From Polytrichum commune (lineage: Eukaryota > Streptophyta > Polytrichopsida > Polytrichales > Polytrichaceae), in assembly GCA_950295325.1 (NCBI GenBank), contig OX485803.1, forward strand, positions 28,336,001 through 28,400,000: a stretch of DNA of 64,000 nt. Reading direction: 5' to 3'. Both the position numbers and the translations under genes were made by a program. The notes below the pieces were generated by a model. That model was not told where the DNA came from. It saw only the letters and a program-made list of their open reading frames with translations, and did not search any database. Shown here piece after piece: positions 3,001 to 29,206 of this stretch (the first letter of the stretch is position 1; each line of letters starts with the position of its first letter).

Positions 3001-5890
3001 AATTTGGAAACACGGATTTGCACTTTACACACCTAGCATGCCCAAATGAGATCAAATCACAAAGGACCTCAAGTGCTCAATGTCCACCGCAAGCCTATTA
3101 AATTTTATCTAAGGTGTAAATGCAACGAACTAAAATAAAACAAAACTACTTTCTTTGGTTAATTCAACTCCACAACTAACTTAAGAGACTACGCATTAGT
3201 ATGAGACCCAATTATGATGAATCAACCTTAAACTTATCACTCATTTTTTTATCCGCCAGACGCCATATACCACACGTTCGAGTACATTGGGCATGTTTAG
3301 GTCTAATATTTTATTTCTAGAGCCATGGATGATTTAGGGCCATTTTGCATCATGGCCATGGGGTCATGACCGTGAATTTGTGAGGGCTCTTGAAACTTGT
3401 TTGAAGGTCACATTAGAGAAAACTAAAACTAAATTTTGAGTGGTCACATGGCTTCAAGTGAAGTGTAAACACATGTGCAAATGACTTTTCAAATAATTCC
3501 ATTACCATATGAAATATGAAGCATGTTGAGATTTTTAAATGTCATGGGGTCTCTTCGTTTTGTGTTAGGCCCACTTACTTGATTTGGGCTTGACGAAAAA
3601 TCTTGTTAGTCATTATTTTCTTTAATCCAAAACATGACAAATTACCACTATCCTCATAATTGTGTGGGTGCTTGTGGGCAATTAATTATAGGATGATAGG
3701 TGGAGATTAATTCGTTTGGAGTCGTGTTCGACGAAGAAAAGGTATAGTATCAAGCAAAATTTTACCTCCAAAATGGATTTTGAGGTTTGAAAAAGTATAT
3801 TTGCACAAGTTGTGCACAAATGTATAGAAGATGATCATGAGGGCTTCATATCTAGTTTACATATCCCACATGCATTATGAATAGTACTCCACTCCACTTG
3901 TAGAAAGGGTAGGGTTTTCCTCCCGAACTTCACATTGAATAGATGTGCATTATCGATGTCATAAACGAATTGAAGTGATTGCATAACATTATTCAATTTC
4001 TATCAAGCATTCCATTATAATAATATTCAGTGGCAGTGCTACATCCAAATCTCACTCGTTTCCCAGGTTGAATAAATCTAATGAAAAACATATGTAGAAT
4101 ATAATTCTAGCTCCTTAGATGATATATTCTCATGCCCACCCAACATGGTGACTTATCTTAATAAAGTTATGCATATTTTTAAGAAACAAGTGAAATACTT
4201 GCGGACATATTGATGAGAATAATATTTAAGCATGTTGGCAAATTTTTCCGTTGATGGCCATCCTTGTTTCTAATGAGAAAACCTAAATGTGTGGCCTTGC
4301 CAAAATAATCAAGGTCATTGGAATCCTATGATATCCATTGTAAGACATGTAATATTCCATGTCGCTCTCCTAAACCATTCTCTATAAATTTCAATATCAT
4401 TTTGGGTGACATCCTACGAAATGAAGACGAAACGAAGTGGAACCACCACTCGTTTCTCAACCAATGAGAGAATTTAGAAAATATTGGTCATGACCCTTGG
4501 TCATTGGCAGGGTCAAGTTCCATGGAGCGAACCGGGCATCATGGTCCAAACTATTTTGTTGGCTTCATGGGTGAGGGTGTGATCACGAGGTTCATTGAAT
4601 GCTTAATGTTGAACCCCCCGCCTTCCTTTGGATTCGAAGGTCTTATATATACTATGAGGTCCATTGACCATGCCACATGTGTGGTCAAGTGAAATGTAAA
4701 GTTGTGATTGGAGGATAGCTTGCATGTTACATAAAAAAGGCGACACCCTAACAATTGAATGGAGGGAAATGATGACAAAGTGCACACTGCACACATTCTC
4801 ACCCCTTTTCATGGACTTTGTGAGTTTGTGAGGGCATGGAAAGGGAGGGGGTCTATAATGGAAGGGAGCATTTACATGCATATAAAAATGCTTGCCACTC
4901 CCTCTCATGGAACTTGTTCCTTAGATAACTTGTTTAGAACCATTTTCTTTTTGACAAATGGTATTTTTGTTTGATTAATTATGATAACTTTCAACACTCG
5001 TGCATATAGGTGACAAACAAAGTATGATAAGATTCTTATAAGATGAAACATGTCAGTGCTTTAAACTTACTTAAAACTTAAAGAAATCTATAAGACTTTT
5101 CTATTGCACTCAAACATGAGAGCATAAGGGGGTTTTGACCCAAATTCAACACCCAAATTTCAGTTGACTCTATTAGGCATGTAGTTGTTGTTGTTTGCTT
5201 TCCCTCCCTTTGAATCAATTGAGGCCACTTTACAATAGAATTTGAGGGCCCTTGACCCATGATATTCACATTATGCGATTGGTCAAGAAACAAGAGACTG
5301 TCCAAGTTCACTTTACACTAGACTATTAAGGCATGTGGAGGGACCAAAGAGATTTGAATGGTTGAAAAATCTTCATGGAGCAACATTGATAACAAGTGGA
5401 TATTGTTTCATGGTCTAATGGACATTATGTTAGGCCTACCCAAAAAAAGTGGAATCAATGCAAAACTGGGGCCATGGCAAACAACTAATAAATTGCCATT
5501 AAGTCTTAGAAATACGATATTACCATGATGGAATCCCATACTACCTACTATTTTGAATTGTTTATAGAATATGGTACCGTCCCTCAATGTGGTCCACTTT
5601 CTCTTTACACCGAGCTTGAGGACCCATTAATTACAAAACTACATCTATTTCCTACAAGACGGGCTTAATTTGGATGATTGCTGAGGGCCCTTAAAATTTT
5701 TATGGTCACGGCTCTTGGTCTGTGTGTGTAGAGAGGCCCTCATCTTCAGAACATATATTAAACTCCTTAAACATTTCAACAAACTGAGAAAATAATTAAA
5801 TGACGCCCAATCGGAACCTCGCGTAGGGTAGCCCTGGCAGGCCGCCAGGTGTGGCGTTTTTGAAATGACGGGGCCCACATCGAACACTAA
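1..5890. other. AT-rich intergenic spacer
   Basis: No supportable gene is visible. Open frames are short, lack recognisable domains and are interrupted at random. A minus-strand frame at 2247-2561 (104 codons, Arg/Lys-rich centre) is the longest, with no family resemblance I can name. A slightly GC-richer patch at about 2270-2450 may be a remnant of an older insertion. One strong hairpin near 350-377 is listed separately. Confidence 0.6.
350..377. repeat. 10-bp perfect hairpin
   Basis: TAGGCCGCTC at 350-359 and its exact reverse complement GAGCGGCCTA at 368-377 enclose an 8-nt loop. The stem is GC-rich in an AT-rich setting. It could be the centre or the end of an old inverted-repeat element, but no matching outer ends were found. 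Confidence 0.6.
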
Positions 5891-6745
5891 GCTACCATAT
5901 TTGGTCGTTATACTGTAGCCTTAAATTCAGATCGCTGACGTCTGAGCCAGAACATACGTATACGAATACCAAATACATACGATACCGCTGAATGGGCGCC
6001 AATATTTGAATTATGCTGCCGGTATTCAGACGTTTTTCGAGGGCCAACGTCCTTGGCTCGTTTTCTGTCCACCCGTCGCTACGTTCATCCACACTCGTAA
6101 GGTCACTCAGGCCTCCTCTGCGGTTTCATCTCCCATTTCTTCATCACTCGGTGGATGATTTCTTCTTGCTCGTGCTCGTGCTCTTGCTGCCTCCCGTAGC
6201 CCGACCTCGCGGTTTGCGATTGCTGCGTGCCTACCAGCATGCGGACACATTGTTCGCAACCTCTCCAGTAATCACCAGATCACTCATTTCGATGCGCTTT
6301 CCGTCGTGGCCTTTTTATAAAGTCTTTTGGTTGAGTAATGCTTCTGCTATTTTGAATTTTACAACCTCCTCGTCCTCCTCGTCCTCCTCCTTATGATGAT
6401 GATGATGTTGCAAAGCTATGGTATCCTCCAGGAGTTTCACATGTTATGTCCACGTGACATTGTTCAGGGAACATTTTTAGGGATGGGAAATCGGATGCGC
6501 AATGGAGCAATTAGCGGTAGGCTCGAACGAGGGTTAGGATTTGGACAGGTGATGGATTATTAAGGCATTGGAAGCAGTCATGTTTGGAATGGAGGATATT
6601 GCAATGCTGACTGCATACGGTACACAAAATGGGGGAGTGATACAATAATGGTGCAAGCGCATGGAATAGGGAATTGAGAACTTCGTCTTCCTTCTGTAGG
6701 AAAGAGTTTATGACGGAAGTCCATGGGTATTGACAGAAGAAAATA
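5891..6745 (+). promoter_or_regulatory. presumed promoter and 5' leader of the KIN-7O kinesin gene
   Basis: This stretch lies directly upstream of the kinesin ATG and is GC-richer than the spacer before it. It contains an E2F-type motif in reverse orientation at 5996-6003 (ATTGGCGC on the minus strand), about 740 bp before the ATG, and a CTC/CGT plus ATG trinucleotide microsatellite at about 6362-6405. A 127-codon frame at 6013-6396 has low-complexity, promoter-like composition and is not taken as a gene. No transcription start can be placed. Confidence 0.3.
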
Positions 6746-9700
6746 ATGGAGAAGATATTTGTAACAATTAGAGTGCGACCACTTAGCAAGGTTGAAGCAG
6801 CGAAAGGGAGCCCATGGAAGCTTGGGCCAAATTCGATTTCTCTCTGCAATTCTTCGGGAGCTGTAGTTCCGGGCCAGTCGTACACATTTGGTACACACTT
6901 ACAATTCACACCGGGTTGAATGTGACATGTGACATGTGAAAGTCCACTGAGATGTTCTTCTATGTGTTCCTGAGTGTGATTTTAGATGCGTCTGGCAAGA
7001 ATATCTTTGTGATGTGGACATTGGGATGCAAATTAACAAGCATGTAGTTCCCAGATAAATATGTCAATTGTTGATGAGTTGCAGCTTGTGTGTGTGATTG
7101 TGGTTGCAGATAGAGTATTTGATGCTGAGTCGTCCACATTGCAAATATATGAAGCCCATACACAAGACATCATCGCATCAGCTGTGCAAGGGTTCAACGG
7201 TGTGTTTTTGTTGGCCTGTGCTTACAGTGTTTTAATTTAATTTAATTTCTTGCATGAGTGACGAACCCTCTTACTCGTGTACATCATCAGATTATTCTGC
7301 TGGCTAGGTGGAGCTCATGTGAGAAATCCAGATGAAACTGTCTGCAGCTTGGATTTAGCGTTCTCGGTTTGACCACCTTCTGTTGTGAGTGAATTCAGGC
7401 ACAGTGTTTGCTTATGGGCAAACAAGCAGTGGGAAGACTTACACCATGCGTGGGTCGCCGCAAGAGCCTGGCATTATACCCTTGGCTGTCCAGGAGGTGT
7501 TCAGGAACATTGAAGAGGTAATTTGGCTGTGTCCATACTCATAACAATAACTTCTGATCTTGATTTTCAGACACAACATTCTGCACGTGTTATAGCTTTC
7601 AATATTTTGACAGCTAAGATGATGTGTCAGGCTGAGGATCGTGAATTTCTCCTTCGTGTTTCCTACATGGAGATTTACAACGAGGAGATCAATGACCTGT
7701 TGGCTCCTGAAAATCGAAAACTTCAAGTTCATGAAAATCTTGAGGTGTGTATGCCCTTCCCCCCGTTTTTTTTTTTCTGCATTCCTGCTATGCAAATCCT
7801 TCATCTCAATATAGACCTGCACACAGCTCACTCTCCTTGTCTGAAAAACTACTTGGGACACATGATGAGAATACTTGCATTGATTTTTTTTGGGTCTCTG
7901 TCTCTGTCTCAACTTATTCGCCGTTTTGGTTGTGAACCTCCATGCTTTTATTGCAAATGTTGCATGTCAAACTATAGAGTGTCTGCAACTTTTTGAGATG
8001 GTTTTGTTGATTGTCTGCAGAGGGGAATCTTTGTTGCTGGTCTGAGGGAAGAGATTGTGGTCAGCCCTGAGCAAGTCCTCGATCTTATGACAGTTGGAGA
8101 GAGTACAGACATGTCATTAATCTCATTTCTGCCTTAACTATCTTAATGCTTATTATGGTTTCCTGCTATGAATCATTGAATATTGCACATGGATCATTTT
8201 CCTTTCCCTTACAAGATTGTACTGAACTATAATCTTCATATGCAGCATACCGCCATGTTGGGGAAACAAACATGAACCTCTATAGTAGCAGGTCTCACAC
8301 AATATTTCGAATGGTGCGTACCGACATAAAATATCTCTAAGTGATATATTGAGTCATGTATAGTCTTTCTGTATATCCTTATATTCTACTTATTTGTTTT
8401 GATTTACTATTTATTGAGCTTTTACAAGAGATCCTCTTCCTGTCTGTTTCTATAGCAATACTTGAATGTGCTGTAAGACAGAATTTGGTTACAGTACTGA
8501 TAATATAAATGTTGAACATCATAAATGAAACAACTGAAATAAACTGTTCTTTTAGAATCAGTATCACAATATGGTATTTTGAATGGAAATTATGCAGGTG
8601 ATTGAGAGCAGAGATCGGAGCCAAGATGACCCCTCTGGCCCTGCAACGGTGCAAAGCTGTGATGCTGTCAGAGTTTCAGTCCTGGTATGGTGAATGAACT
8701 TCCTTTGAGTTTCATGTCTTTGTCATTGATCTGTAGTCAATATTGGAGGACAGTAAGGTGTGCAGAGAGGTCACATCCAGAGATTTGAAGCACTGGAAGG
8801 CATCTGTGATCTCTTGATTGTGATACAAGTATCTGACATTTGTGCCAGGGTCTAGGAATCCTTTCATCAGTTGTATCCATTACTCTACCTAGCTTAATTC
8901 TTGATGTAGAAGCTTGCTTTGTTTTCTGCTTCATGTAGAAAGGCTCCAGCTTTCAAACAACCTTTACAAATACTGTTTTGCCAAAGATTATCATATCAAA
9001 TTCGTCAATTTGGTCTCGTTTGCTGAGCAGAATCTGGTAGATTTGGCTGGATCGGAGCGTGTGGCAAAGACAGGAGCTGAGGGAGCCCGCTTGAAGGAGG
9101 GCACTCATATCAACAAGAGTTTAATGACCCTTGGAACTGTTATCAACAAATTGAGTGAAGGAGTTGAAAAACAAGGGTAAATTATGCCATCATGTACATT
9201 TTGGATATGCAAGAAGATTGTAAAGATACACTTGCAAGCATAGGGGTTTGGCCTTATAGTATAGTGTGATGGCTCTCAGTATGAAGTATGATACTGTGTA
9301 GAATAGGAATGGATTTTTTAGATCAATGCTTATAATCTATGTTCCAGCTTCTGCCAATGTATTGCAGAGAATGTTCAAGTAGGACGTGTAATAAACCATC
9401 AAATTGAGTGCCTTTGATCATAGGAAGTCTGGGTGGAGTGCAGTGCTGTACTGTCAGTAATTTTCAGTCTCCTTTATTTTCTTCCTTGCCTGAGGGAGAC
9501 TATGATAGATTTCTAGCCTCCAAGTTGTAAGTAAATGCTGTTAATCGTTTCTAAACTTTCCTAAATAAGACTTCTACATCCTCAATTTCTTGCAGAGGGC
9601 ACGTTCCTTACCGTGACAGCAAGTTGACAAGAATTTTGCAACCAGCTTTGGGAGGCAATGCAAAAACGGCTGTAATATGTAACATCACTCCAGCTCAGGT

Positions 9701-9979
9701 ACACTAACTTCATTAGCATTTTCTCTGCTGGTAATCGTGTGCTAGATGCTGCTAAATAAACAATTCCAGCTTCACAAGTGAATAATGAAAATTTACTTTC
9801 TCTAATCTACGCTGGTAAAACCCACAACTAATCAGTGTGCACTTGCTTAAGACACCAGCTTGATGACACCAGCTGAAGACTGCAATTTCTATGTTCAGGT
9901 CCATGTCGATGAAACAAAAGGAACACTGTTTTTTGCAAGCAGGGCCAATCGTGTCACTAACTGTGCGCAAGTCAATGAG
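6746..9979 (+). other. KIN7O: kinesin motor domain, exons 1-10
   Basis: Exons: 6746-6890, 7110-7199, 7399-7517, 7631-7744, 8021-8102, 8246-8313, 8598-8684, 9031-9176, 9596-9698, 9899-9979. The P-loop reads [10 protein letters not shown] in exon 3. Switch I reads N-L-Y-S-S-R-S-H in exon 6. Switch II reads D-L-A-G-S-E-R in exon 8, followed by H-I-N-K-S-L. Exon 9 carries [10 protein letters not shown]. All nucleotide-binding residues are intact, so the motor should be active. Introns after exons 1, 2 and 5 are phase 1, the one after exon 8 is phase 2, and the others are phase 0. Confidence 0.92.
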
Positions 9980-12900
9980 GTACATCACACGGTTCCTGAG
10001 CATGACTTGTTGCATAAAGTAATCATTGGAGTTCCTTGTATTTGTTTGGGACGTTCACTAATGATATATTTCACCATTCATGTGGATTTAATTAAATATT
10101 GTTGCTGAATTCTTGATTTGGCCTGTCCAGATTATGACAGATGCTGCACTTCTCAAGCGTCAAAAGAGGGAGATTGAGGAGCTCCGCAGCAAGTTACAAG
10201 TGAGAATATAGGATGAACATTGAATTAACATGATGTTTTCATAGATGAGGATGAGTGTTTGTTGTAGCAAGAGAATCATTTTATTCAAAGAAAATGTCAT
10301 GTTACTTCAATGTGGTCCCTCAACTGTCTTGTAACCCTCTTTTATTGACAATTAGTTTTTCTAATCCCTCTCTAGAGGGAGATGCTTGGTTTAGAGATGC
10401 TCTTTCACAATTTTCTATATCTAACAGAATGCATGGTATTCACGTTGCCAGGACAACCATTCCGAGCACTGGGAAGAAGAGGTCTTAAATCTAAGAAATG
10501 CTCTTCTGAAGGTAAGGGATCAATGTACCCATTCATAGCTTTGAAAGCCACTCTGCAATTTCCAGAATCATTCTAGTTAATTTTGTTGCAGCTCTGATGT
10601 TTTTTTGTTGGTCCAGATTGAGCTGGAGCGAGAATGCATGGCATTGGCTCTACAAGAAGAGAAAAAGGCACAAGCAGAGCGTGAGCGGCGCCTAAAGGAG
10701 CAGGAACAGAAGATTGAGAATCTCAGCACTATGGTCATTAATTCTGCTGTAGATGACCGAGATTTTGACAAAAGGAACAAAAAGGTGTGGTCTTTCTCCC
10801 TTTGCTTTAGGTTACATTCTAATCAGCAGGGTGCCTCCAACCCGTATTGAGTGTCATGTTGGAGAAGCCAAGCCAAGTCAGACTGCTAGATACCTATGTT
10901 GTATTATAGCGAACAGGCATATTAAGGTGGTCATCCATTTCTTAAAGAATTAGAACATCTCTTTTAAGTATCAGTGCAACCCCTTGCACATTCTTGATTT
11001 CTTTGTATCATATAACTTGGTTCTTTACATGGGATAATCTTATATTACATCCCAAGTTCCACCTTCCTTCAGAAATTGGGCGACCCAACATGTGACCTTC
11101 AGAAATTCTGTGACCTTCGGAAATTCGACCTTTCTCAGGAATTGCATTGTCAAGCGGCTATCACCTTCTCTTTGCTTTGACAATTGAGGTGTTTGCTCAC
11201 TTTCATTTGTTTGGAAGTGTAGAATAATCGACGGGAAACTTGGTGTCCACGAGTTCCCTCTGCTGGATCTGATATGGAGGTAAGAACCAGCTCAATAATG
11301 CTTATACTAGTTTCTATCCTGTTTTCTAATATTTGGTAGTCATAATGCTTGTGGTGTAATGATTGCACTCAGAATACATGATGAATTGCAGACGTAAATA
11401 TCTGTGCCTTTGTTTGCCTCTCTGCAGCCCCAAGAAAACATAAGGCCTTTCGTTAAGGAGTCTCCTGGAGGACCGTTTACTAAGTCTGTTCTTCCAAGAC
11501 GAAGAGACAGGCTTCCACCTATGCCACCGCCATTTGAGAGCCTGATGGAAGAAGAAGGGATGGTATCACCCTTAGTGGAGCTTGACGAAAACACAGTTGA
11601 AGAAAAATTTCACAGAATATCATCTGCTACAAAATTAGACTCCATCTTTAAGGAGCCACCGCCTGCTCAATACACTGAAAGGAAGAGACGCTCAGCAGAG
11701 AAGTCAACGGATGTTGACGTGAGTAGAACCGTGCCTGTAGATTTAAGTGTCTTTACTTTGCTGAGTGTTGGCGCTGGAGCATCACCAGTGTTCTCATCAT
11801 GAGACCTGGACGAGGTAGATTTGATGAGTCAGGTGAAACTTCAGGAGCAAGTCAAAGAATTCTCTAATTTACAAACTACCTGAATGATTCATTATGACCC
11901 ATTGATCATATTCCTCTGTATTTGATCCCCTTATTATGACCTGATTACGCTTGATGCTAGTTATGTTTTATTCACTATAAGCGGCTATGATGCTTGAACA
12001 AATTTGTCATATAAACCTCTCAACATGTACTTGCGAAATGAGTTAGATTCTGGTTTTGTACTTGTGGTATCCCACTAAAATCGGTTCAAGATTGCATGAT
12101 GGGTCAGAAGTTTCAAGTCACCAAAAGCACCTGAAGATGATAAATGTCCTGTGGTAATGTTTTATGCAGTTGAATCAGCAGCTGGGAGACCTGCAAGTGC
12201 AATACGATGAGCTTCAGTTCGAGCATGAACTCAAAGTTAGTACACACTCTTGTAGTATGCAGGCAATATCTGGAACAACTTTGTGTTATTGCTTCATGTT
12301 CAAAGAAGTACCACTAAATAGAACTGGCTGCCTATCATGTCTGCTTCCATGTGGGTGTTTGATGCACACTTTCAGCATTTAGTAAATCTTTGATTGCAAC
12401 CTCCTATAGTTCAAGAACTCAAACATAGATCACTAGGTTGTAAGTTGCAAAAGCAGATGTCTTTACGATTAGTGATTTTGTTAGAGTGCTGCATGGCATA
12501 TTATGTTGGGAGGGTTCAAATCCCCAGCACATACATTACTCACCAGAATATTAATTCCAGAAATTTTTAGAACTTTGGGAATCCGGATCTATGTTGTCAT
12601 GCTGACGACACATTCTTTCGGTCTAGATGAGGGACATCATGCTTGAAATGGAGGAGCTGAAGAAGGAAGTTGCATGCGCACAGTTGGCTGCAAATAAAGC
12701 ACGAAAATTAGAGGATACATGCCATCAAGGTTCCGAGGACAGGAGAGGAAAAAGCTTGGATGGCTGGGAGTTGGAAACTAATGTAAAACAGCTGAGGGCC
12801 CAGGTATACTGCTTCCTTCTTAAGGTGTTTGTATCTTGTTAATATTGCAATGCTATTGTAACTGCCCTGTGTTTTAAAACTAGGCAGCAAAGGAGATTGG

Positions 12901-15900
12901 TGGTATTTTACTATCACAATCAACACCTTCAGAACCAAAGACCATATATAGCTGCTGTTGTACTGTTACCATTGATAATCACCTTTTATATAATAGCTAA
13001 TGGGATTTTCGACTTTGTGGACAGGTCCAAAATTTGGAGTTGGAGAAGTTTTACATGCAAAAAGAGCTAAATAGTGTTACAGAGCATGCTGCAAGCCGAG
13101 CAGCATCAGCAAATGCGGAGTTGGAAAATGTAAATGAAGTTCATTCATGGTGTTTGGCTCTGGTTTGGGTGGCTGTAATTATATTGCATTATATTGTCGG
13201 ATCTGGACAAAACCCTAAGCTCCATTGAAAGTAGCTCAGTGCTTAAATGTTCATGATCTTAATTCAATTGTCTTGATAATGGCGTTTCAGTTGGAGCAAC
13301 AACTCAAAGAAGCAAGGAAAGAAGCTCAGGATACAAAATTGGAGTTGTGCCAGGCACTCTCGCAGATCGATCAGATGCAGAAGGAAAAGCAATTAGACTT
13401 GGACCAACAAGCACAGTTGATTACCTCCTTCAATGAGCTGAAATTGGAGGTTGAAGCCACAAAGAGCAGCTCGCAAGCCTATCACCTGGGTGCTGTTGAT
13501 AGTGCACATGCTCTGAAGTCTGATATTATGAACCTTCAGGTATAGTTTATACGTGCATTTCTTGGTGCAAGCATCCTGATGATTCCTTCATTTCTTCTAA
13601 CACCAGAGTATGAAATCAGTGTTGAGAAGGGCGTTTTAACACAATTGCACCTTAGAGTGGGAACATGTAGGCTGAATTTCTCTGCTGTGTAACACCTCTT
13701 GATATATTTATGCTGCTGAGTGAAGTTTATTTTGAGATCAAGTATGTGATGAGTTGTCATATATCAAATCCTATCTTAATATAAGGACTTACTGCAAAAT
13801 ATTTTGAATAATTGGCAGCATGTGGGAAGTTTAGTGAACTAACCTGCGTGGTTCTTTGTGTCAAGCAGGAATCTGTAGTTGATGTGAAGGCCTTGAAAGC
13901 TATTCTCCAAAACAATCACCTCCTAAGTCCTCAAAGTGATCTGGCAGCTTTGACAAAGGAGTACAACTCATTGTTAAACAGCCTCCAAATGGTGCAAAAT
14001 GAAAGAGACTCCTTCTGCCAGATTTCTAAGCTAGCTCAAGCTGACTTGAAATGCTTTGAAGAAGAGATGAGTAGGAAAAGCAAGGAACTTGAAGCTACTG
14101 AAGAGAACCTGCATTCTGCAAAGATCAAGATTGTGAATGCTGGTAATGAAGTTGCTGACCTTCAATTACTCTTATCAGAACGTGAGAAAGAGCAACAAGC
14201 TCTTGAACAGAGAATCAAAGATTTGGAAGGTGAAGCTCTTGCTGAGATGTCCGAGGCTGAGAAAGACAAGCTTAAGGAAAGGATAGCGGAACTTGAGGAA
14301 GAGCTCAAAATAGTGGCTGAAGAAAAGGCTAGTCTTATTTGCAAAGGAGATGCTATGCATGCTACCATTCAGGTGATTAGCTTTCTGACATTTGATATCC
14401 CTGCAACTCTTGATCCTCTTTATCGTTGCTATAATGTTTTGTTCCTGATGAAATGACATTCCCAGCATAATGGTCTTACTTAATTTATGATTGTTCTTAG
14501 AACATAAATTGTAAAATCAGTTGTGCACACATTGTGGACACCTATATAATAACCCCCAACATGAAGATGTGATTCCAGCTTCACAATAGTCTGAACAACC
14601 ATGGAGACGTGCCAGAAACCAAATGATGAACTGTTATTAGCTGTTTATAGTTCTTCTTTGGAGGCACTTTGAAGCAACTACATTTGGATATCCTGCTTAT
14701 TGTATTGGCAAGGTGGGTGTGGGTGGAAATGATCTTGGAAATCATGAAGTTGAGGAGTCCCTGTACGTTTAAAAAAAATATAGTTCTTAATGTCCAGGTT
14801 CTTGAAGGCGAGAGGGACGCATTGATGGAGACTTCTAAACAAGCACAAGCTGATATGGATCGTCTGCAAGGAAAGCGCAGACAAGAGCTTAAAGATGCTC
14901 AAGACAAGCTAGAGACTGCACTGTCTGAAACAGATGCTGCTAAGGAACAGTTGATATCAATGCGAGCCATTCTTTCAGAGAAGAGTGAAGAACAGCAGAT
15001 CCTACAAGATAAAATGCATACTCTTCAAGCTGAAAGTACATCATTAAGATTAGCTCTGGAAGAAAAGGTCCAGGCTCTTGAGACTGAGAACTTGATGACA
15101 AGGAATACACTTGATGAAGAGGTTAGGGAATTTGAATCATCCCGGCTCGAATATGAACAAGAGAAGTCTGCGCTTGAGCTGAAGTTGGAAAATCTGCTAG
15201 CCTGCGTTGAGACCCTGAACAAAGAGAATTGTAAGTTAAGTGAAAATTTCGAGATGTCCCAGGTGGAGAGTAAACGTCTGCAAAGAGAGCTTGACTGCCA
15301 AATTGGAGATTTTGAATCATTGAGGGCCCAGAATGTAAAGGATGAAAACCAGTTAAGTGAACTGAAGCTGGCACTGTCACAGCAGCTTGATGAAGTTCAA
15401 GGGTATAAACGCAAGGTTGTGGACCTCCAAGCAGAAAAGGCACGTGATAACCCTTTCCCTGTCCTTTGTGGCAAGATATTCTGATGATGTGTGCGTCCTA
15501 TACAGCTACTCTGATTATACGGATTCCATCATTGATCACTACCATAGAGGTTGTGTCAATGTTTAGCACTACATTCAGCTGAACCACACCTTATTTGATT
15601 ATCTTGTCTGAAGATTTTGACAATTGTGACAGAGTGCAATGGAAACCTGCCTTGCTGGAGAAACTCCAGAGTCCATTAGCAATGTTCTGCTGGAAAGAAG
15701 CCTGCAGCTTTCAGCTGCTCAGTTTTCACTACAGTCAAAGGCAACTGAGCTTGAGAATGTAAAGAGGGACCTTGAGCTGTTACAGGTAACATACCTTATC
15801 TGCATACAAATGTGTATGTATATTCTGGTCTTGAAGTTGTACAAACTCTGAGGATTTTCCTTTTCATTCTGGGTCCTATCCTCTCTACTCGTTTTACTTT

Positions 15901-18900
15901 TTGTTTACTGCAGATAATGAGGATCTAGAATCATTAACAACAGTTTTCAGTATATGCAAGTAATCCCACTTCCATTTGCTGCAAGTGTACTGAACATTGA
16001 ATGCATTTGTACCGTCACCATTAACTTTTTATTTTGATATAGCATGGATGTGCAAGAAGATACTTCTATAGGTCACTGTAGTCTGCATATTCTGTATAGC
16101 CTTACATGGAATTCGAACCAGAACTCTCCTTGCAGTCTTCATGTTTTGTTTGCCCTTTGTCAGTAATATTCGCTTGCTTCTACTTGTCAATGTTCTTTTG
16201 AACGGCCCTTAGCAGTCCCTACTTTTTGTCTTTGCTTCTCAATAAACAGGTAAATTATGATGGCCTTACAGGTTGGTGCTTGGGACAATAACATCTGGCT
16301 TTTGTTATATTTAGTACAAGCCTCCATCATGGGTTTGCATTTTTATGAGTGCTTTGCAGGAGACAAAGGCTGCTTTGGAAGTAGAGGTTGCAGAAGCCAA
16401 AACCTACGGTGTAGCAGTGGAGGAAACTCTCATGGAGGCTGTTGGTGAATTGGAAGCATCTAGCCAAGAGAAGATGAGTCTAAAGATGGAATTGGAGAAA
16501 GTACTTGAAGAATCTTCTTCAAAAACTTCTAGACTTGTGGATCTTGAAAGTGAATGCTCTGCACTGGTAAGTAGATATTTCATTCATATTGTCTGTCTTA
16601 AGTTATAATTGAATTGGTAATTTCGTCCTTAGTCCTTCAGTGAGAGAAATTTCCTTACATTGTAACAGCCATGCTAGTGCACAATTGCTGGATCTGTGTT
16701 CCCTTGACTTTAGAAAGCAGTGCAAATATGTCAGCGGCAATAGGTTGGACTGACAACGGGCTTTCAGGTTGGTAGACTGGCATCTATGAAGGTGGCGATG
16801 GAGGAGAGTGCTAGATGGAACCAAGAAGTGCAAACCCACAAAGCAAACTATGAGGTGGCCATCCAAGAGAAGCTTGAACTTATTGAGGAGTGCAAGGCTT
16901 TAAGGGCTGCCCTTGTTTCTGTGGAAGAAGAGCGAGAGGCTTTAAAGGAGCAAAACTATCAAGCTCAAGTTGAACTTAAGGAATTTGATGTTGAGGTTCA
17001 AAGACATCGTGAAGAAATCAAGGTCGCAGAAAAGGCACTCAAGGTGGCAAACGAAGAGAACATGAGGGCTGGAGATGTCATTGTAGAGCATCAAGCATTA
17101 CTTTCTGAGAAAACAAATGAAATCTCTTTTCTTCAAAACAAGATCCAGGACATGGAGAGAAAGGCGTCCTCTCTTATGGAAGACCTCAGGAACCAGGAGG
17201 CACAGTATACTGGGCTGAGAGAAGACATAGACAGCAAGGTAGTTGAGATGGAGCAGCTTGTTCTCATCACTTCTGCTGAGCGGGCACTTCTTGTGGAAAA
17301 GAATGAGGCTGCAGTTGCTGCCTTTCAGAAAGTAGAAGAGGAGCGAGATAATCTGCTAGTGAATATCCAAGAGGTAAAAAAGGAGGTCAAGCAACTCACT
17401 GAGGCTCTTGGTTTTCAAGAAATCCAAAATGAGGAGGCGAAGGCAAAGCTTGAAATAGCTGAGGATCACATCCATAAATTTCAACTCTTATTGGAAAAGA
17501 GGACATCAGAGAAAGAACAAATGGAGCAGGAACAAGATAGGTTGGTACAAAAATTGCTGGTTGCCGAGACTCTCCAGAAGGAAGCGCTTGAGACAAAAAT
17601 CCGAGCTGAGGAAGCAATCGTGTCAAAGCTTGAAGCAGTTACCTTGGAAGCACTTAGTGCTAAAGAGTTGTTGAAGCAAGCACAAGTTTTATTGAGCGAG
17701 AGGACAAAAGAAGTTGAGAAACTAAAGGCGGAAGAAAGTAGCTTATTGGATTCTAAGATGCTTATGCAAGATACCATCAAGTGTTTGAATGAAGAACTCC
17801 AAAATCATCAACTGCAGTTGGAGGAGGTGGAGGGTAAGTTAGAGGCTGCAAAGTGTGAAGTTGATGATGCAGGTAAGCAGTTGAACGAGGTTCATACTTT
17901 ACTGTCAGAAAAGCACCAAGAGCATTTGATGTTGCAACGGAAGCTCGAGGAGCTGGAGACCTCAAAGGTTTGTACTTTCCCAAAACTATTAATATGGCCT
18001 ACACTGTAATCATCTAATGCTAGGAATCCTGCACCAATATTAGGAAGTTGGATATTGTGATGTCTTTATGTAGTCCATTTATTTCACATGCTGTCTGCTG
18101 TATTTGTGATAAATGCATGCCTACAAATGTATGCCAGTTCTGGCTGTACAAATGTACAATTCCATGTATGCATTATATGGTTGAGAACCCTGAGTATTTG
18201 GCAATCTGTCAGGAAATTGATCAGTTAATATCCTAGTAGGCTTTGACATGTGTAGTCACTACTTATGTTCTGAATGGGGACTTTCTTTGCAGTGTGCACT
18301 GGAGAAGGCATTAATCGATAGAGAAGCTGAATTGGCCTCAAAATCTGAAGCTTTATCATTATTAGCATCAAAGTTGGAGGTGAGATGTGTGTCCTTCCAT
18401 CTTCTCCAAATTGTATACATCACTGCTTGGATGTAATCTGCTGGAAGCCCTCTATAATATGTCTAGTTTTTGGTATGCGTCATCTGTTTTTGAAATTGCT
18501 TGATATTGATGATAGGAAAGGAAGCTGCTTCTGTCTTTGGAACCAGTCAATTTGAGGACCAAGAATGAGATTCAGCTGGATGTGCTTCTCATTGTCCCAA
18601 GACTAACAAGCTATTCCAGAAGATTGACATTCATTCAAATGAAACCTCTGGTAACAAGTTTCAATTTTGGTGTATGGACATGTTCAGGCCTCCCAACACC
18701 TACACAACAGTGAGTCTTCGCAGTTAAAGTCAGATATCCTGGGACTGCGCAAAGAGCTAAAGGCTGCAAAGGCTGCACCTGCTTCCTTGGAAAAGGAACG
18801 GGATGGGTTAAGAAAGGATCTGGAGAAGCTGAAGAATAAGATGGGTGATGTGGAGGCAAAGCTCAAGTCAACCTTGATTGAGAAGAGCAAAGTTGAGGTA

Positions 18901-21900
18901 ATTTTTGTGTGAAAGGGACAGTAATGAGGGGTGTGTGTGTAACTTGCATTAAGAGATGTCTTTAATAGCATTTTTGGAAGTTGATGGTGTTTGGGTGAGT
19001 ATTTGTGCATGATGATGGCATGAGGACCTTGTATGCCCAGTTGCCCAGTACTCTTACAAACTGAATTTTATTAGCATCTTGGTTTCCGATATCTTGGTGA
19101 TGTGATGTTTGTGTCTTCAAGCTGAGATTGTTGAAGTGGGCATGGGGATGTACAAATGTCTGTCACATTTAAAACTAAGTTTTTTTGTGTGATGTGCAGA
19201 CAGAGAAAGTAAACATTGAAAGGGAAGTAAAGCAGCTGCGTCAGAGCACAGCTTTGCTCAATAAGCGGGAATCAATTGTAGACAAGCGTCGAGAATCTGT
19301 AGCCTGTGGTCTCAACAAGACTAAGCTTCAGCTGTCATCTACTGAGCATGCGTTGCAGATGAAATCCAATGAACTTGAAAAGACAGCTTTTGATCTACAA
19401 CTTCTCCAGGTTGTGACACATGATTTCCCTTCATGTATTGTGTACCATGTGTAATTAACTTGACTTTAGGAGACTATAGTGTTGTAATCATTCTTGCTTT
19501 ATGACATCTACATAGACGACTTCAATTCTTTTACCAATTAGTGCCAAAATCTCCTTGATTGGCCTTCAAATGAACACTAAAGATTATTCTCCTTAAGTTT
19601 GTAGCCTATTGTGCTGTCTTTTGGTTGTTTTTGCTGTTCCAGGATGCTAAGGTGGTCTAACTTCCAGGTTCTACTCAATATGCAGGATAAAGTACACTAA
19701 TGTGAACAGTGCTAATGCAACCTGATAGAGTATTCTTGTACATGGTACCCTAAATGATGGGTGATCTGTTGTCACGTTTGTTTACAAGAGACTGTTATGA
19801 TGTAATGGGTAATGAATCATGAAGATGTGCTCATTCAGCTACATGACTTTGTTCTGCTGGGTTTCAATTAACAAGAGAATCTGTGGTTACAGGATAATTA
19901 CGCAAAGCTTGAAGCTGACATGTGTGAAACAGAAAAGGCCTCAGTAAATTTGAAGGAGAAGCTTGATGAGGCTGAGACTGCTATATCCCTCTTAAGAGAT
20001 GAGAAGGCAACTGCTGCTTGCAGCATTGAAAAATTTGCTCAAGATCTTGAAGACGCACTAGAGCAAAGATCGCTGATGAATACCCAGCTGGAGGCCCTTC
20101 GTACTGAACATGATGCTCTGGTTAGAACTAAAACTGAATTTCTAGTTGAGACTGACTTACTTGATGCCTTCCACTCAGCACATGTCTATAAATTTGCCAT
20201 ATTTTTGGGGTCCGTATTTATGGTCATTGAAAACACATTGACACTAAACTAGCATCATATGATATTCTATGTACAGGTGCTGTCAATTTTGGATGGTGTG
20301 AACTTCAATAATATGTCAATGCCTTCTGCTATTGTGCTTGTGCTGATATTCCAGTTGAAGAACTATGCAGTGAGAATTGTGGTTAGATAGAATGTTGTAC
20401 CAGTAGGAATTCTTCAGTTGAAGGGGAGATGCTACTTGTACTTCAGTTGCACTTATGATTCCCTATGCTAAACTGGTGATGGTACTGGATTTTGATTGTT
20501 TTGAGTTCTCTTGAGATATTGAAACGTCTCATCCTTGATGCAGATGGATAAGTGTCAAATATGCCAACGTGCCTTTGAAGAGGCAGATTCTTTAGCAAAA
20601 TCAACTGCCTTGGAGAGGGATGACTTAGCTCAAGTAAGTGTCAACTACAGTTTTCAATATCCCATAGAAGAGGAAGATAAAGGTATTGTGGGTGCAGTCA
20701 AGATATAATTTTGTATCAAAGTCTGGCGTTGGTAACATACATAGGTGCTCATTAACATGTTCCATTTCTGCTCCTTTCTTGTAGTGAGTGTCTAATTTCT
20801 TAAACTACACTGTTGATGTATTCTGCAGCAACTCACGGATTCACATTGTGAGTTTGACGTGGAGAAGGCAGCATGGGCTTCACAAGCCAATGAATATGAT
20901 GCAAGAATCCAAGATCTTGGACAGGAGATTGTGAACCTTTCTGACCAGCTCCAGCAGGTGCAATTGCAACTGTAAATCCCCCATGAGAGTTTGGAAGTTG
21001 ACAATTTCACTTTAAGACCCAAATTCTATACACAAGCATAAAAAGTCACTCTCTTTTGTAGATGTTAGTACATTGGTTTCTTTTATGACACACTGCCTCC
21101 GATTAATATTGTGCTTTTTAGGAATAAAAAATGGGGTTTTTTATTCTGTATGATCACCTCTGCTTTAGTTTTCTGTTCAATATAATATGATAACACAAGT
21201 ACGAGATCCTTTTGCCTGAGGCGGGCTCTCTGTACAAACACATCAATTGATATTTCTTCATTTGCAGACTCAAAGAGGACAAGAGGAGGCAGTTGCAGCT
21301 ATGGATGTTGCCCAAGATCAAGTTATGCAGTTGAAGCAATCTTTGCAGGAGAGTGTGGAAGAATGTGTTCGGTGCCAAGAACAGGTACATGTCTCAGAGA
21401 GCCATGGGCACTGCTAAAAGTAGTTCTTGTATACATATATTTTTCTGCAAGTCTATAGCTGTACACAGTTGATACTGTCAGTGCCACTATTATCAAGATT
21501 TGTCATGACATGTATAATAAGTCTACGTGTACAGAATCTGCAACATTAGGACCTGTTGACCTTTAGGAGCAAGTGTGCACAGACGATTGTGGGTTCCAAT
21601 ATTCTTGGATTACCAGTTCATACAGTGACTGTAGATCGAAGCAGTTCTGTCACTGAGGCATCTGTCTCCTTTACAAGTGAATGATCATGTGATCACGTGG
21701 GCTGGTGGGATGTCATCACTCAACACTATACATGTTTAAACACATATGCCTCTGCCCAGAATGAGGTGAGCCTGTGATTGGTCTGGACTGTTACTTGTCC
21801 TGCTCCTGACATATAGTTGTTTCCAAAATGTTTGTCTATGTTACAGATCCAGGAGTTGAATTTGACTCTTCAAGAACATTCTGAAAAGCATCAACATTTG

Positions 21901-24900
21901 GAGGAGAAAGTTGCTGCTGACAAAGAGAAATACTGTGCACTTGAAGAAAATTATCAAAAGCTAGAGCAATTATTAGTTGCGTCTGAATCCAGTAGAATTG
22001 AAGAAAGCCAATCCAAAGCTGATCTTCTTGAGGAAACCGAACAACTTAAAGAGATGCTTCAAGTGGTGAGACAAAATTGTAAAGATCTCGAAGCACAGAT
22101 CTTAGAGTCCAAGGCCATGATCAGAGAAGAGACCAATGCAAAGATGACACTGTTGGAAGACAGGCAAGACTTGGCCAAGACAATTGAGTGTCATGAGGAA
22201 AGATGTAAGATGCTGGAAGAGCAGATTTTTAATGCTGAATCCATTATCAATGATGAGAGAGAAAGTAAATTGAAGCTTGCAGAGGAGGTCCATCAGTTGA
22301 AGGAAAGTCTGCAGCAGAGCATGACAGACTTTTCTCAGGTACAAGACCGAGTCACATGCAGAGTTGCATATGAAAGCACCACTCTGCTTGCATTTCTGAA
22401 TTGAAGTATTGGAATTGGTTCTATGTGATATACTTTTCATTGGCCACATGAGCTTGGCAGCTGAACATAATGGAATTCAGAACTCTAAGCTTTATTCTGT
22501 CTTATGCAGCAAGAGGCCTTGAATGTCAACCAACAGAGATTGCAGGATCACATTCTCCAGCTGGAAACCAACTTATGCAATGAGCGAGAATTGAACTCTG
22601 CAGCCAAGAAAGAGGTGTTTGTGTCTCCTCTGTCTTTTGTGTTGTTCGGATGACCAGGCTTAGTGGTCCTCCCTTGCCTGTGTTGGCTGGTCTATGCAAT
22701 TGTGTTCCTGAATGACAGTATGTAGACTGAAGTTCGTTAATTCTTCATCACAGATATTAGGTCATCTCTTTTTATGGCTAGTTCAGTTGCTTGAAGAAGA
22801 ATTTTGTCAATGTGGAAGTCAATGGTTACAGGGATGATCTGAAAGAACTCCCACCTCATGTTTCAATTGATTTCTGAACAGGTTGAAAAACTTCAGTCCC
22901 AGTTAAATTGGACTCCAATAGAGTTGGAGTCGCGTCAGGCAGAACTGGATAAAGCGCTTACAAAATTGAAGAGTCTGAGCTCGGAGGTGGATGAGACACA
23001 GGCAGCTTTGGATAAGGCTAGACAGGAGAGTATTATTCTGAGGCAGCAAGTTGGCGAGTTGCATGCCAGGTAAATGTTCAGTGCTTGCTTAGACTACTAT
23101 TTGAGATAAGGGCAATTTTGATCAAGGTTGAAATCACTGAAAGTAGATGGCCATCCCATAACTGAGCATTCTTTGTATATTTTGGTAAAATCGATCTCTT
23201 CAATTTTTGCATGAATTCACTCTGATCCTAGATATCCTGGAGATTCTCCAGTTCAACCTGGACATCCAAAGAGTAGAGACACTCGAAAACTTGTAACTTG
23301 AGTCTTGAGAAAAACCTCAGGGAATATGCTTTGCCAAGTACTATCACGTGGCCACTTAAGGCGTTCCAGGTCAATCAAATTTCAATGTCATACTTCATGT
23401 GCCCTACATAGATCAAGTAGTCTTCATAGTTCATTGATAACTTTATTTTTTCGAATTTCATATAATTTATTCATGCCAAGGTGCAGAATATGGGTCCTAA
23501 GATGTTGAAGTAAAATGTGACAGGATTTCCAGCCTTCAGAATATGAATGAAGAACTGCAGTTCAGGGAGTCCTGTCAAGTGAAGGTACATCTTCCAAATT
23601 GCAGAATTCTCAGTTTTTGGTGGGCATTCTCCCAATGTATCAGTTGTCTGTCTAATATAGTTCAGTTTAAATGGAATGGTTGGAATGCTGTTCCTGGCAA
23701 GGACACTCCAACAAAATCTATCAAATATTAGGACTAGTGGTAGTCACTGAAAGTTGTGGCTAAATTATCTTTGACTATGCAGCTTCCTTGAAGTAGATTC
23801 TTTCCTGAATATCATCTTTGTATCTGAATAGTCTTGTACTGGTTCTTTTTGATGGCTTGGTAGTTTTCTCCATCAGATTGTATAAAGCAAATGTAGCCAG
23901 CATGAACCAGACAAACATCATAGTGCAAGTGAAGTTCATTTCTTTGATTCATTTGGTTTAATTGTTTGAATACAACATTGCCTAGTATGTTTTGATACTT
24001 AATGTACTTCTATCAACACTTATTTACAGGACAACATGGGCTGCTTGGTTTCAATTTGTAAACTCCAAAAGGCATTGGATGTAACGAAAGGTTGGCTCCA
24101 GTTATACAAATCACGGCGAGACAAAGCTGAAGAGCTGATTGTGATTTTGAATGACGAGAACAAGAGTGTTAAAGCTATGGTGGCTGGATCTAAAAAGGAA
24201 GCCGACGAGCTTCGCGTTGAACTGGAGAATCTGAGGTAGTGTAAATATACTTGAATGCTATCATTGAAGATTGTTCACCAGTTATGGAAATCATGTTCAC
24301 TCAAGTGCATGTCTAGTCCAGGCTTGCAAGAGTTTAAGTATGATGGCTCACCTAGCATGTGCTTGACGGTGGCAGTACTTTCATATTCTACATCTTGCTT
24401 CAATTAGCTTAATTCAGTCATTTCTACTGTACTCGTCACCCCTGCCATTTGTATTTCATTGGGTTTTTGGATTTTGATTTGCAGCTTGGGAATCCGCTGC
24501 ATTGTGAGAAAGATGATTAACCTCGTGGATACATATTTTAACTCCTGGATAAGCCAAGTCATTCTTAAGTGGAGCTGAGACCATAATTTCTGTTGATGTT
24601 GCAGATATCGATGTAAGAGATATGAGCAGGATATCACACAATTGAAGAGCACAAGAACGTCAACTGCAGAACAAGAGAGAGGATTGGCTGAGGTCACGCA
24701 GCTGAACAATTTGCTACAGCTGCGCTTACAAAATGCAGAAGAAAGTGATCAGGTGCTCATAGAGCAGAAAATAATCTATTGTCATTCTACTGTGTCCCTT
24801 GCTGATTTTTTTTTCTAGCAATTTAGAAAAATTGTAAAAAATAAAAAATAAAGAAAAATGCTCTCCAGATTTAGGTGATGTAGATTACTTTTTATGTGTG

Positions 24901-26666
24901 TTTCATGACTTAAGTTCCTACATGCAGGCACGTTGTGAGGAGCTGAGGAAAATGCGCCTAATTGTGAAGGGGAAAGAAGAGGCTATAGTTAAACTTGAGG
25001 TATTACCTTTCTAATACTCTGCCAAATTGTGTCACTCTGCTACCCTAGTATCATCAAAAATTCTGCAGAGGAAATGGCTTAATATGAAGCAAGGTGATAA
25101 TATTATGCAAGTTTCAAATGTTTAACCATGGAAAGGGAGATATTTTTGAAAAACAATAGCATTCAGCAATCTGGTGTCTACAATATGAATATCACAGGCA
25201 GCTCTGGAGAAGGTACAGCGGAAGGTGGTGAAGCTAGAGAGGGAGCTTTATGCAAAGGATGAACCCCGAACTGCACAGAAGCCAGAAGGGTCAAAGGCAT
25301 TCAGGCGAGAATCCACGAAGCTACAGGACACAGTCATGAAGGCTGAGCCCCAAACCACACAATGGCCTGGAGGGCCAATGTTGGATGTGGGGGAACTTAT
25401 GACTCCAGTTGCATCAAGACAAGGAGACGATGACTGGAAGAACACTGATGAAACTGTGTCTCTATATAGTGGCAACCTTGCCTCTAGAACCAAATGGGAA
25501 CAGTTGAAATTGCAGGTACTGTTCTGTCAAGCATGTCCTGTCCATAGGGTCTTCATTTGAGGCAATAGATGACTCTCCAAATTGGCCATCAATTCATATT
25601 GTGCTTGAAGATTTGACGGAGTTCAGATACATACGTACCGAAGTGGGTAGCCAGAAGTTGCCATTTGAAGTAGAGTTAGAATTTGTTCGACTGTTTTTAA
25701 TTTGCAGAAACGAGACAGATTATGTTCGATTAGAAAGTCTCTTCTATCTTGGCTGGCTGTACACTTCAAAATTTTGAGTACTGTTGGATATCTTACAGTG
25801 TGAGGTTTGCATCTGTTAAGATACTAATTGATTACTGGATTGATGCAGAACCAGAGTTTGCTGCAGAAGTACAAGCAACCATGGCGGATACAAAGGTCCC
25901 CAGGAGGCAGTGTGGGCCAATTAGATGCATACGAAGATCAACCCCCTCCACCGTCAGCCACTCTTCATTCGCAGCAAGAAAACTTGACTGCTCCGGTATG
26001 CTAAACTTTTGAATTGAGACCTGACTGACTGACCTGACTTTCAATGATTGATTGTTTTACCATGATAATATTGCCTCCGGAAATTAGTGAAGTTAAGATT
26101 GTAATTAAGACATGACTTTTCAGAAGGATTCCAAGCTGGATGGTGATAATGCCTTGAGATACTGCCTGAGAGGCTGTCAGGTCCTTCAAGGAAGTTTATA
26201 TTGAGCTAGTTTCTGAAACACCTGACTAATATATGAACACAGACTTCTCATAATACCTGAGTAATATATGAACAGACTTCTCATAATACCTGGGTGCTTT
26301 TCCGCCATTGCTTTTAAGCATGTCTCTCCACATTCAGGAAGCTTGACAATCTTGGATTTCCGTGTGCAGATATACACATGGAAGAAAGCAACGACAACTG
26401 GAAGAGTGTCTAATTCAGAATTTCCTCAACATTCTGGTAGTGGTCTTAGCATAGATAACCCAAAAGCATCACTAAAATCTCGGAGTGCACAACGGGCTGC
26501 CCTTGCACCTGTAAACAGATTGTCTACAGATAGGCTTGACAGGAGATTACAAGCCAAGCTTCCAATGCAGGAAGTAGATTCAACTGAAGGTAAGGCCTCA
26601 TTTACAGGTCTACCGACACCTCGTGAGTTTAGATTTAGTCAGCCGCTTGAAAAAGAAAATCTGTAA
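6746..26666 (+). CDS. KIN7O: giant KIN-7O / CENP-E-like kinesin, 42 exons, about 2,706 aa
   Basis: A kinesin-7 motor expected to walk to microtubule plus ends and act at kinetochores or in the spindle, as CENP-E does; the role here is inferred from family. The start codon at 6746 ([15 protein letters not shown]) opens directly onto the first motor strand. Hand splicing gives an open frame of 8,121 nt ending at TAA 26664-26666. Order: motor (1-345), neck and early coil with E-E-V-L-N-L-R-N (346-444), Pro/charged linker with R-R-E-T-W-C (445-571), coiled coil (572 to about 2450), basic Ser-rich tail ending E-K-E-N-L. Motor and linker motifs match plant KIN-7O as I remember it, but Arabidopsis KIN7O is about 1,270 residues, so this tail is more than twice as long and close to human CENP-E in size. 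Boundaries around exons 15/16 and 22/23 are the least certain; the rest join in frame at GT-AG sites. Confidence 0.88.
10131..11832 (+). other. KIN7O: kinesin neck and linker, exons 11-16
   Basis: Exons: 10131-10199, 10452-10511, 10617-10784, 11223-11279, 11428-11722, 11804-11832. Exon 11 holds the KIN-7 neck ([12 protein letters not shown]). Exon 12 must be read in the frame giving [14 protein letters not shown]. Exon 15 is proline-rich and basic and ends with K-R-R-S-A-E-K. The donor of exon 15 is uncertain: using the GT at 11723 joins in frame to an exon at 11804 reading L-D-E-V-D-L-M-S-Q, while the GT at 11719 does not. Exon 16 probably ends at 11832 (CAG before gtgaaa) but could run a few codons further. 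Confidence 0.7.
15440..15632 (+). other. candidate GC-AG intron in the kinesin gene
   Basis: The coding frame of exon 22 ends ...Q-A-E-K at 15439 and resumes in phase 0 at 15633 (S-A-M-E-T). The only donor that keeps the frame exactly there is GC (AAG followed by gcacgt). A GT 24 nt downstream (CCT followed by gtcctt) also keeps phase 0 but is a poor match and would add eight residues without coil character. GC-AG is therefore preferred. Confidence 0.5.
21952..22329 (+). repeat. three gap-free 42-residue tandem repeats in kinesin exon 33
   Basis: Coding units 21952-22077, 22078-22203 and 22204-22329 (residues about 2065-2106, 2107-2148, 2149-2190) align without gaps. The shared pattern is K-x-L-E-x-Q/L-I/L near the start, a Ser/Ala-Glu-Ser core, then an acidic stretch, S/A-K-x-x-L-L/A-E, and Q/D-L-K/A. 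42 residues equals six heptads, so the coil register is kept. DNA identity between units is low, so the duplication is old. Confidence 0.8.
25849..26666 (+). other. KIN7O: kinesin C-terminal tail, exons 41-42
   Basis: Exons 25849-25995 and 26370-26666. The coil gives way to a basic, Ser/Pro-rich tail of about 150 residues with [13 protein letters not shown] and a final E-K-E-N-L before TAA. In CENP-E-type motors the tail is the cargo or kinetochore-binding part; that is inference here. In exon 42 an alternative frame ([10 protein letters not shown]) soon hits a stop, so the frame continuing the long open stretch was chosen. Confidence 0.75.
26219..26285 (+). repeat. 33-34 bp tandem duplication in the last kinesin intron
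   Basis: Two adjacent units (about 26219-26252 and 26253-26285) share CTGA(C/G)TAATATATGAACA followed by GACTTCTCATA, and a third partial start follows. It lies within the intron between exons 41 and 42 and does not affect the splice signals. Confidence 0.8.
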
Positions 26667-28462: not shown

Positions 28463-29206
28463 ATGGAGGCCATGGTGGGAGTTCTGCCAGACTCCTCTTC
28501 CAAAACCCTAGACAGCGAGACACTCTTCGAAGCAGCCGGGAGCGGCAACATCGCTGTGTTTGATAAACTTTCAGTCGAAGATCTTACTAAGTCTCGTCTC
28601 CTTCGCAACGAGGATGAGAGGACGCTTCTCCACGTGGCAGCCGCGGCTGGCCATGTCATGGTGGTGAAGAAAGTGGTGGAGAATATGCACGATGCCAAGA
28701 GCGTGGTGAATGTAAGCGACGAGGAGGGATGGACACCGCTACACTCTGCTGTGAGCGGAGGACGAGATGCTGTCGTGGAAGTGCTTCTTGCCCTTGGAGC
28801 AGACGTGGGAGCCACCAACAAAGGAGGCCGAACTGCCTTGCACTACGCTGCCAGCAAAGGGCACATTGAGATTGCGCATATGCTCATAAAGAGCGGCGCC
28901 AAATTGAACAGGAAGGATGAGGTAGGGTGCACTCCGCTACACCGAGCTGCGAGTGCGGGGCATGCTGAAATGTGTGAAACATTGCTGGAGGAAGGGGCTG
29001 ACGTGGAGGCGACCGATTTGTTGCTACAAACCCCTCTTATGCATGCTGTTATCTGTGATAATCGCCGTGTGGCATTGCTTTTGGTTCGCCATGGAGCAGA
29101 TGTGGATGCTTTGGACAAGGAGGAGTATACTGTTCTTGGCCGGGCTACTGAGGAGTTTCGTCCTATCCTCATCGATGCTGCTAAAGCGATGCTCGAGAAT
29201 TCCTGA
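28463..29206 (+). CDS. ankyrin-repeat protein, PSMD10/gankyrin-like, 247 aa
   Basis: Intronless frame of six to seven ankyrin repeats, the length and layout of the plant protein annotated as 26S proteasome non-ATPase regulatory subunit 10 (gankyrin; Nas6 in yeast), an assembly chaperone that binds the Rpt3 ATPase. Repeats with T-P-L-H or T-A-L-H signatures start near residues 52, 89, 122, 155, 188 and 221; the last is shortened and ends A-K-A-M-L-E-N-S. An N-terminal helix pair (L-F-E-A-A-G-S-G-N) precedes them. I chose the ATG at 28463, which sits in a good context (gcgccATGG) and begins M-E-A-M-V-G; an in-frame ATG at 28436 would add nine residues. No nuclear signal or membrane segment is seen. 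Other small ankyrin proteins have the same fold, so the proteasome link rests on length and overall similarity. Confidence 0.82.
   Translation: MEAMVGVLPDSSSKTLDSETLFEAAGSGNIAVFDKLSVEDLTKSRLLRNEDERTLLHVAAAAGHVMVVKKVVENMHDAKSVVNVSDEEGWTPLHSAVSGGRDAVVEVLLALGADVGATNKGGRTALHYAASKGHIEIAHMLIKSGAKLNRKDEVGCTPLHRAASAGHAEMCETLLEEGADVEATDLLLQTPLMHAVICDNRRVALLLVRHGADVDALDKEEYTVLGRATEEFRPILIDAAKAMLENS

Follow-up and report, generated by a model that had tools for sequence, protein, structure and literature searches.

The closest described relatives of the gene considered here, a kinesin gene in a 64,000-nucleotide stretch of the Polytrichum commune genome (the window; contig OX485803.1, C1:28336001-28400000), are the CENP-E-type kinesins, or kinesin-7, of animals, mosses and Arabidopsis. 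Human CENP-E has 2,701 residues and a coiled coil of ~230 nm, and animal CENP-E is prenylated at its C terminus (PMC6028960; this and the other papers are cited for the parts of their text that were available). In Physcomitrella, the kinesin-7 classes III and IV are CENP-E-related, each class has Arabidopsis orthologs, and the coiled-coil domain of class III is much longer than that of class IV, the available text giving neither a residue count nor an internal duplication for class III (PMC3472504). The moss kinesin7-III is described in a review as a potential CENP-E and is reported to co-localise with Mis12, and in the same review At1g59540 is the gene given for the kinetochore kinesin KAK1, next to a moss gene (PMC11794483). 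Another paper identifies At3g10180 as CENP-E and states it to be the reported KAK1; kinetochore baits recovered it there, if less robustly than others, and a coil at its residues 1200-1225 is predicted to contact BUB3, which implies a length of at least 1,225 residues for the Arabidopsis protein (PMC12595034). KAK1 is assigned in these two papers to different Arabidopsis genes.

On the + strand of the window, a gene running from an ATG at 6746 to a stop at 26666, modelled as 43 exons encoding 2,731 residues, is probably one intact KIN-7O gene of ~2,730 residues whose coil grew by duplication and works as a kinetochore tether. Its motor is complete: exons 1-10 (6746..9979) join into an open frame of 345 residues (1-345) without a stop, contain the motor motifs, including DLAGSE, and match the Pfam family Kinesin at 3.4e-110. 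Among the 60 of 158 PDB matches listed, the closest are the CENP-E structures 1t5c (326.6 bits) and 6m4i (324.2 bits), presumably human, followed by KIF3B (274.7 bits). The gene is of the kinesin-7/CENP-E type: it adds a member to a known family, is otherwise an expected kinesin-7 and does not found a new type of protein. The original prediction of a CENP-E/kinesin-7 protein with a long stalk is borne out by these PDB and Pfam matches and by the low-proline, heptad-patterned stalk described below. The narrower name KIN-7O is assumed from Arabidopsis motifs, as is KIN-7N for the two paralogs introduced below; the motifs of the motor, neck and linker presumably agree with those of Arabidopsis KIN-7O/At3g10180. 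Because the coil of class III is long, KIN-7O was equated with class III, which would place the window gene in the moss class III of PMC3472504; the equation is uncertain because PMC11794483 pairs the moss kinesin-7 with At1g59540, not with At3g10180. If the window gene does belong to class III, a match suggested by the description of that class, a long stalk would not be unexpected in bryophytes.

The genome (407.8 Mb in 64 contigs searched) contains two more complete motors of the CENP-E type, paralog A at C1:13.45 Mb and paralog B at C1:36.86 Mb. The window motor is 70% identical to each of them (238/339 residues with A, 239/341 with B), whereas the motors of A and B are nearer each other (260/345, 75%). 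Of exons 1-13, 9 of 13 in paralog A and 10 of 13 in paralog B are as long as their counterparts in the window gene, in models for which the window protein served as guide. Exons 11-13 (10131..10784), which encode the neck and a first short coil (residues 346-444), rest on the splice model and on alignment with the paralogs (identity with the window protein 59/79 in A and 54/76 in B), and exons 14-15 (11223..11718) encode a proline-rich linker (residues 445-560) recognised by its composition and by short local matches (16/35 in A, 9/11 in B). Exons 16-19 (12170..13539), the proximal stalk (residues 561-762), can be aligned in part with paralog A (35% identity, 52/147 residues, z score 4.8) but not with paralog B (z 0.0); past residue 762 neither paralog shows a clear match, the highest values being z 3.6 for residues 1265-1420 in the comparison with A and z 3.7 for residues 1421-1931 in that with B. 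The paralogs share with the window gene the motor, the neck, traces of the linker and mostly equal motor exon lengths, and their match to its stalk is proximal only. Paralog A can be followed for ~1,480 residues up to its last confident exon; the models of the ends of both paralogs entered neighbouring genes.

The gene model was obtained with a splice Viterbi algorithm self-trained on the kinesin gene and run over 6001-28000 from the ATG at 6746, with 26666 as the best end. Several motor exons were misread in that run; the ten motor exons were then placed by homology and the remainder re-run, with the last exon placed manually at 26370-26666, matching the end of the 6001-28000 run. The log-odds score of the model is 1050 on the + strand, compared with 21 on the reverse strand and at most 30.8 in ten dinucleotide shuffles, and elsewhere in the window the same scoring gives, strand by strand, 98 and 105 for 28000-50000 and 21 and 21 for 42000-64000. 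The forward score is inflated, because the scoring was trained on the same gene. Among the 42 introns, 41 donors are GT and one is GC, all 42 acceptors are AG, retention of the intron gives an in-frame stop in 41 of 42, 36 of 42 are in phase 0, and lengths have a median of 259.5 bases and a maximum of 574 bases. The single non-GT donor belongs to exon 21 (window 15440, GCACGT). Moving the end of a single gene to any other stop up to 26700 loses at least 9.9 log units. Continuation of the gene past 26666 was considered and rejected: a run extended to 30 kb merged an ankyrin frame (28491-29206) downstream, and the end was reset to 26666. The hand splicing of the original prediction had the same start and stop, and its counts, 42 exons and 2,706 residues, differ only a little from the 43 exons and 2,731 residues of the final model.

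Several details count against this model. Support is weak for exons 14, 26 and 33, for the exon 41 acceptor and for the GC donor that follows exon 21; the end of exon 18 was not stable between two model runs; a free start chose an upstream ATG at 6483; and an unconstrained split into two genes landed within the motor, with a gain of +6. The free start and the split inside the motor show that the model is weak at its 5' end, where 6746 was kept as the start since paralogs A and B, modelled with the window protein as guide, begin likewise. Splits within the stalk, in each of which a stop was followed by a restart at least 100 bases on, also weigh against a single gene: with no boundary penalty, the best differ from one gene by +2.5 (22740/22858) and +1.4 (11883/12164), and the next by +0.7 (23791/24036) and +0.1 (26004/26112), with lower values thereafter. 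At zero boundary cost these splits tie with one gene, so that coding statistics do not decide for a single gene. The locus might accordingly be divided into a shorter CENP-E-type kinesin, whose end would lie within the stalk or shortly beyond it, and a second gene, for a coiled coil, on the same strand, and the absence of a clear homology link between exons 36-43 and the rest would suit such a division; it is nevertheless unlikely, for the gaps between coding exons, at most 574 bases, leave little space for a terminator and a promoter, a split near the junction of exons 15 and 16 is opposed by the similar proximal stalk that follows the linker in the model of paralog A, and a block duplication that spans the intron between exons 22 and 23 in both copies speaks against a split there. 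A single transcript for the motor and the full stalk is likely, and truncation after exon 35 would still leave 2,256 residues.

The order of parts in the predicted protein would be an N-terminal motor, a short neck, the proline-rich linker, a coil of ~1,900 residues and a short tail. Residues 561-2480 include 6 prolines (0.3%), and a hydrophobic period of 3.5 residues reaches 1.8-3.2 in five stalk segments versus ~1.0 in 100 shuffles of each; this heptad signal is missing from the motor (1.1) and from the tail (0.6). At the coiled-coil rise of 0.1485 nm per residue, 1,920 residues would make a coil of at most ~285 nm, if continuous, compared with the ~230 nm of human CENP-E. The distal stalk (exons 30-40, 20544..24999, residues 1932-2478), drawn from the splice model and the heptad signal, has no clear homology to the rest, and the tail (exons 41-43, 25198..26666), drawn from the splice model and composition, lacks the heptad signal, is rich in Ser, Thr and Pro, becomes mildly basic at its end and terminates in KENL before the stop. 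Three stalk exons and one tail piece were scanned against Pfam: two of the three stalk exons and the tail piece matched no family, and exon 34 matched HMMR_N with 17.8 bits, under the family cut-off of 30.1. In Arabidopsis, KIN-7O/At3g10180, the same CENP-E type of kinesin-7, is put at ~1,270 residues, under half the length of the window protein, and the original statement of a stalk more than twice the usual plant length rests on this Arabidopsis value. No length for plant KIN-7O is given in the available text of PMC1434745, PMC5371999 and PMC8905165, and the literature as available reports neither the length of a bryophyte class III kinesin-7 nor an internal duplication of its stalk, which is weak evidence of absence. 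Human CENP-E, whose motor is the best PDB match, is nearly equal to the window protein in total length and also has a long coil; unlike animal CENP-E, the window protein has no prenylation motif at its end, which is KENL.

Intragenic duplication produced part of the stalk, a conclusion directly supported by comparison of the predicted protein with itself. Exons 20-23 (13869..16566) encode a first copy of a stalk block, with aligned residues 772-1264, and the remainder of exon 24 through exon 29 (17236..20120) encodes a second, residues 1421-1931. The two align with a score of 327 (200 shuffles: mean 200, maximum 255; z 8.6 and 9.1) and are ~30% identical (139/469). Phase-0 introns after residues 1195 and 1264 coincide exactly with those after residues 1855 and 1931; all 16 combinations of matrix and gap settings keep both coincidences, and when longer segments are supplied, 16 of 16 alignments extend beyond the second shared intron. 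With random placement of introns, at least two coincidences occur in 0.1% of trials and at least one in 5%. On a smaller scale, units of ~130 residues starting at ~804 and ~931 in copy 1 and at ~1316 in the first part of exon 24 (16768..17235, residues 1265-1420), all located by self-alignment, are mutually similar (z 6.7, 9.5 and 7.9; 300 shuffles each), and a further copy of the unit lies near 1584. Self-comparison of the protein by blastp gave nothing off the diagonal; the repeats were found instead by diagonal and Smith-Waterman scans. With windows of 40, 80 and 150 residues, the best ungapped stalk diagonals reach 89, 120 and 132, whereas 40 heptad-preserving shuffles give no more than 76, 82 and 109, and 38 of 1,378 pairs of 100-residue stalk tiles exceed the best of three shuffled stalks. 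When the genome was searched with exon 24 (31 candidates scored), matches at E up to 0.001 were confined to the query itself and to exon 20 of the kinesin gene (E 1.6e-5). Exon 34 (21847..22338) has a possible internal period of 42 residues in the diagonal scan, where the offset of 42 scores 114 in an 80-residue window (highest null score 82) but 69 in a 40-residue window (highest null score 76; 40 shuffles).

A different origin would be survival of the CENP-E stalk of the ancestor of plants and animals, in which case the internal similarity would be merely the generic likeness of coiled coils. The total length near that of human CENP-E would fit this origin, and some of the evidence tells against duplication: coiled coils resemble one another and share composition, the pair of residues 1421-1931 and 1936-2478, used as a control, scores 224, above the maximum of 214 in 100 shuffles (z 3.6), and pairs of the units with residues 1450-1545 are not significant (z 1.5, 1.8 and 1.1). 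The raised control pair may instead reflect a weaker homology between those two segments. Generic likeness is quite improbable as the whole explanation, for it does not readily account for the gap between the z scores of the duplicated pair and those of the six other pairs of stalk blocks (1.4, 3.6, -0.2, 0.3, -0.9 and 0.1), nor for two exact intron coincidences that persist in every alignment setting. The original prediction had posed a choice between survival of an ancestral stalk and regrowth by duplication; duplication stands, on the block pair, the two shared introns and the ~130-residue units, and regrowth within the lineage is not supported, the copies being only ~30% identical.

The duplication looks old, because the identity between its copies is near the 35% found between the proximal stalks of the window gene and paralog A. 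Arabidopsis orthologs exist for class III as well as for class IV (PMC3472504), so the two classes had separated before mosses and vascular plants parted, and if paralog A and the window gene represent these classes and coil segments change at comparable rates, the copies would be about as old as the split between classes III and IV. Against so great an age it must be said that duplicated copies can diverge faster. A much later growth of the stalk, by duplications within the genus or family of P. commune, would find a parallel in the recent duplication of the neighbourhood, where exons 1-13 have a copy ~203 kb away at 94-98% identity; it is very unlikely, for the copies in the stalk have diverged about as far as paralogs have, and self-comparison of the DNA of the gene (E up to 0.01) reveals a single repeat, a tandem with an offset of 34 bases in the last intron. 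Because the duplication looks old, ancestral survival of a long stalk and its growth by duplication are not exclusive. It can be proposed tentatively, and with less than even confidence, that the CENP-E-like length is convergent, ancient duplications of exon blocks in plants having built the stalk of ~1,900 residues, which flowering plants (Arabidopsis) later shortened. If this were so, stalk length would reflect what the spindle physically demands, not descent. The length of the tether may affect how CENP-E reaches microtubules, and plants would offer a comparison with animals in this respect; the duplicated exon block with its two shared introns would provide a mark for dating the long stalk of plant CENP-E and for asking if part of it was lost in flowering plants.

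As a duplication-grown tether, the protein would most likely work as is known for its family: two chains would pair along the coil, the motors would walk to the plus ends of microtubules, the end of the tail would hold the kinetochore, and the whole would be a long flexible link that brings chromosomes to the spindle equator. The location at the kinetochore is transferred by analogy from the plant relatives described in the papers cited above. In the middle of the stalk, the ~130-residue units were probably duplicated first, followed by the multi-exon block of ~500 residues.

The copy upstream of the gene corresponds to window positions 5456-10885 (upstream DNA and exons 1-13) and lies at C1:28137001-28143680, ~203 kb upstream, with 94-98% identity; its match starts at the edge of the compared piece, so that its upstream extent is a lower bound. 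It has ~1.2 kb inserted before the start and deletions of 2, 11 and 4 bases in exons, and differs from the window at 11 of 1,315 aligned exon bases and 50 of 2,699 intron bases. The idea that it was a complete paralog against which the stalk could be checked was considered and ruled out, as the copy covers only the 5456-10885 segment and its exons are broken; being a broken recent fragment, it says nothing on the stalk.

The first 1.34 kb of paralog B (C1:36867901-36869240) has copies of 98-99% identity at four other full-length sites and several partial ones, on C1-C5, and may have spread as if by a mobile element. Of the 66 matches listed, with 40 of 2,747 candidates scored, 56 fall at 66-79% identity in bases 260-633 of this segment, inside the first intron of paralog B, which makes a repeat element in that intron probable. 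The frame downstream of paralog A, from C1:13474.6 kb onward, resembles what we take to be an IRE1-type kinase, and the + strand ankyrin-repeat frame 3' of the kinesin gene (28491-29206, ~238 codons) presumably resembles PSMD10/gankyrin. Elsewhere in the genome there are 29 exon matches to a dynein-type AAA family connected with sperm axonemes, as would suit a plant with motile sperm, most likely a seedless one, and a plastid-type contig carries what we take to be rbcL, tRNA-Arg(CCG) and an accD-like frame.

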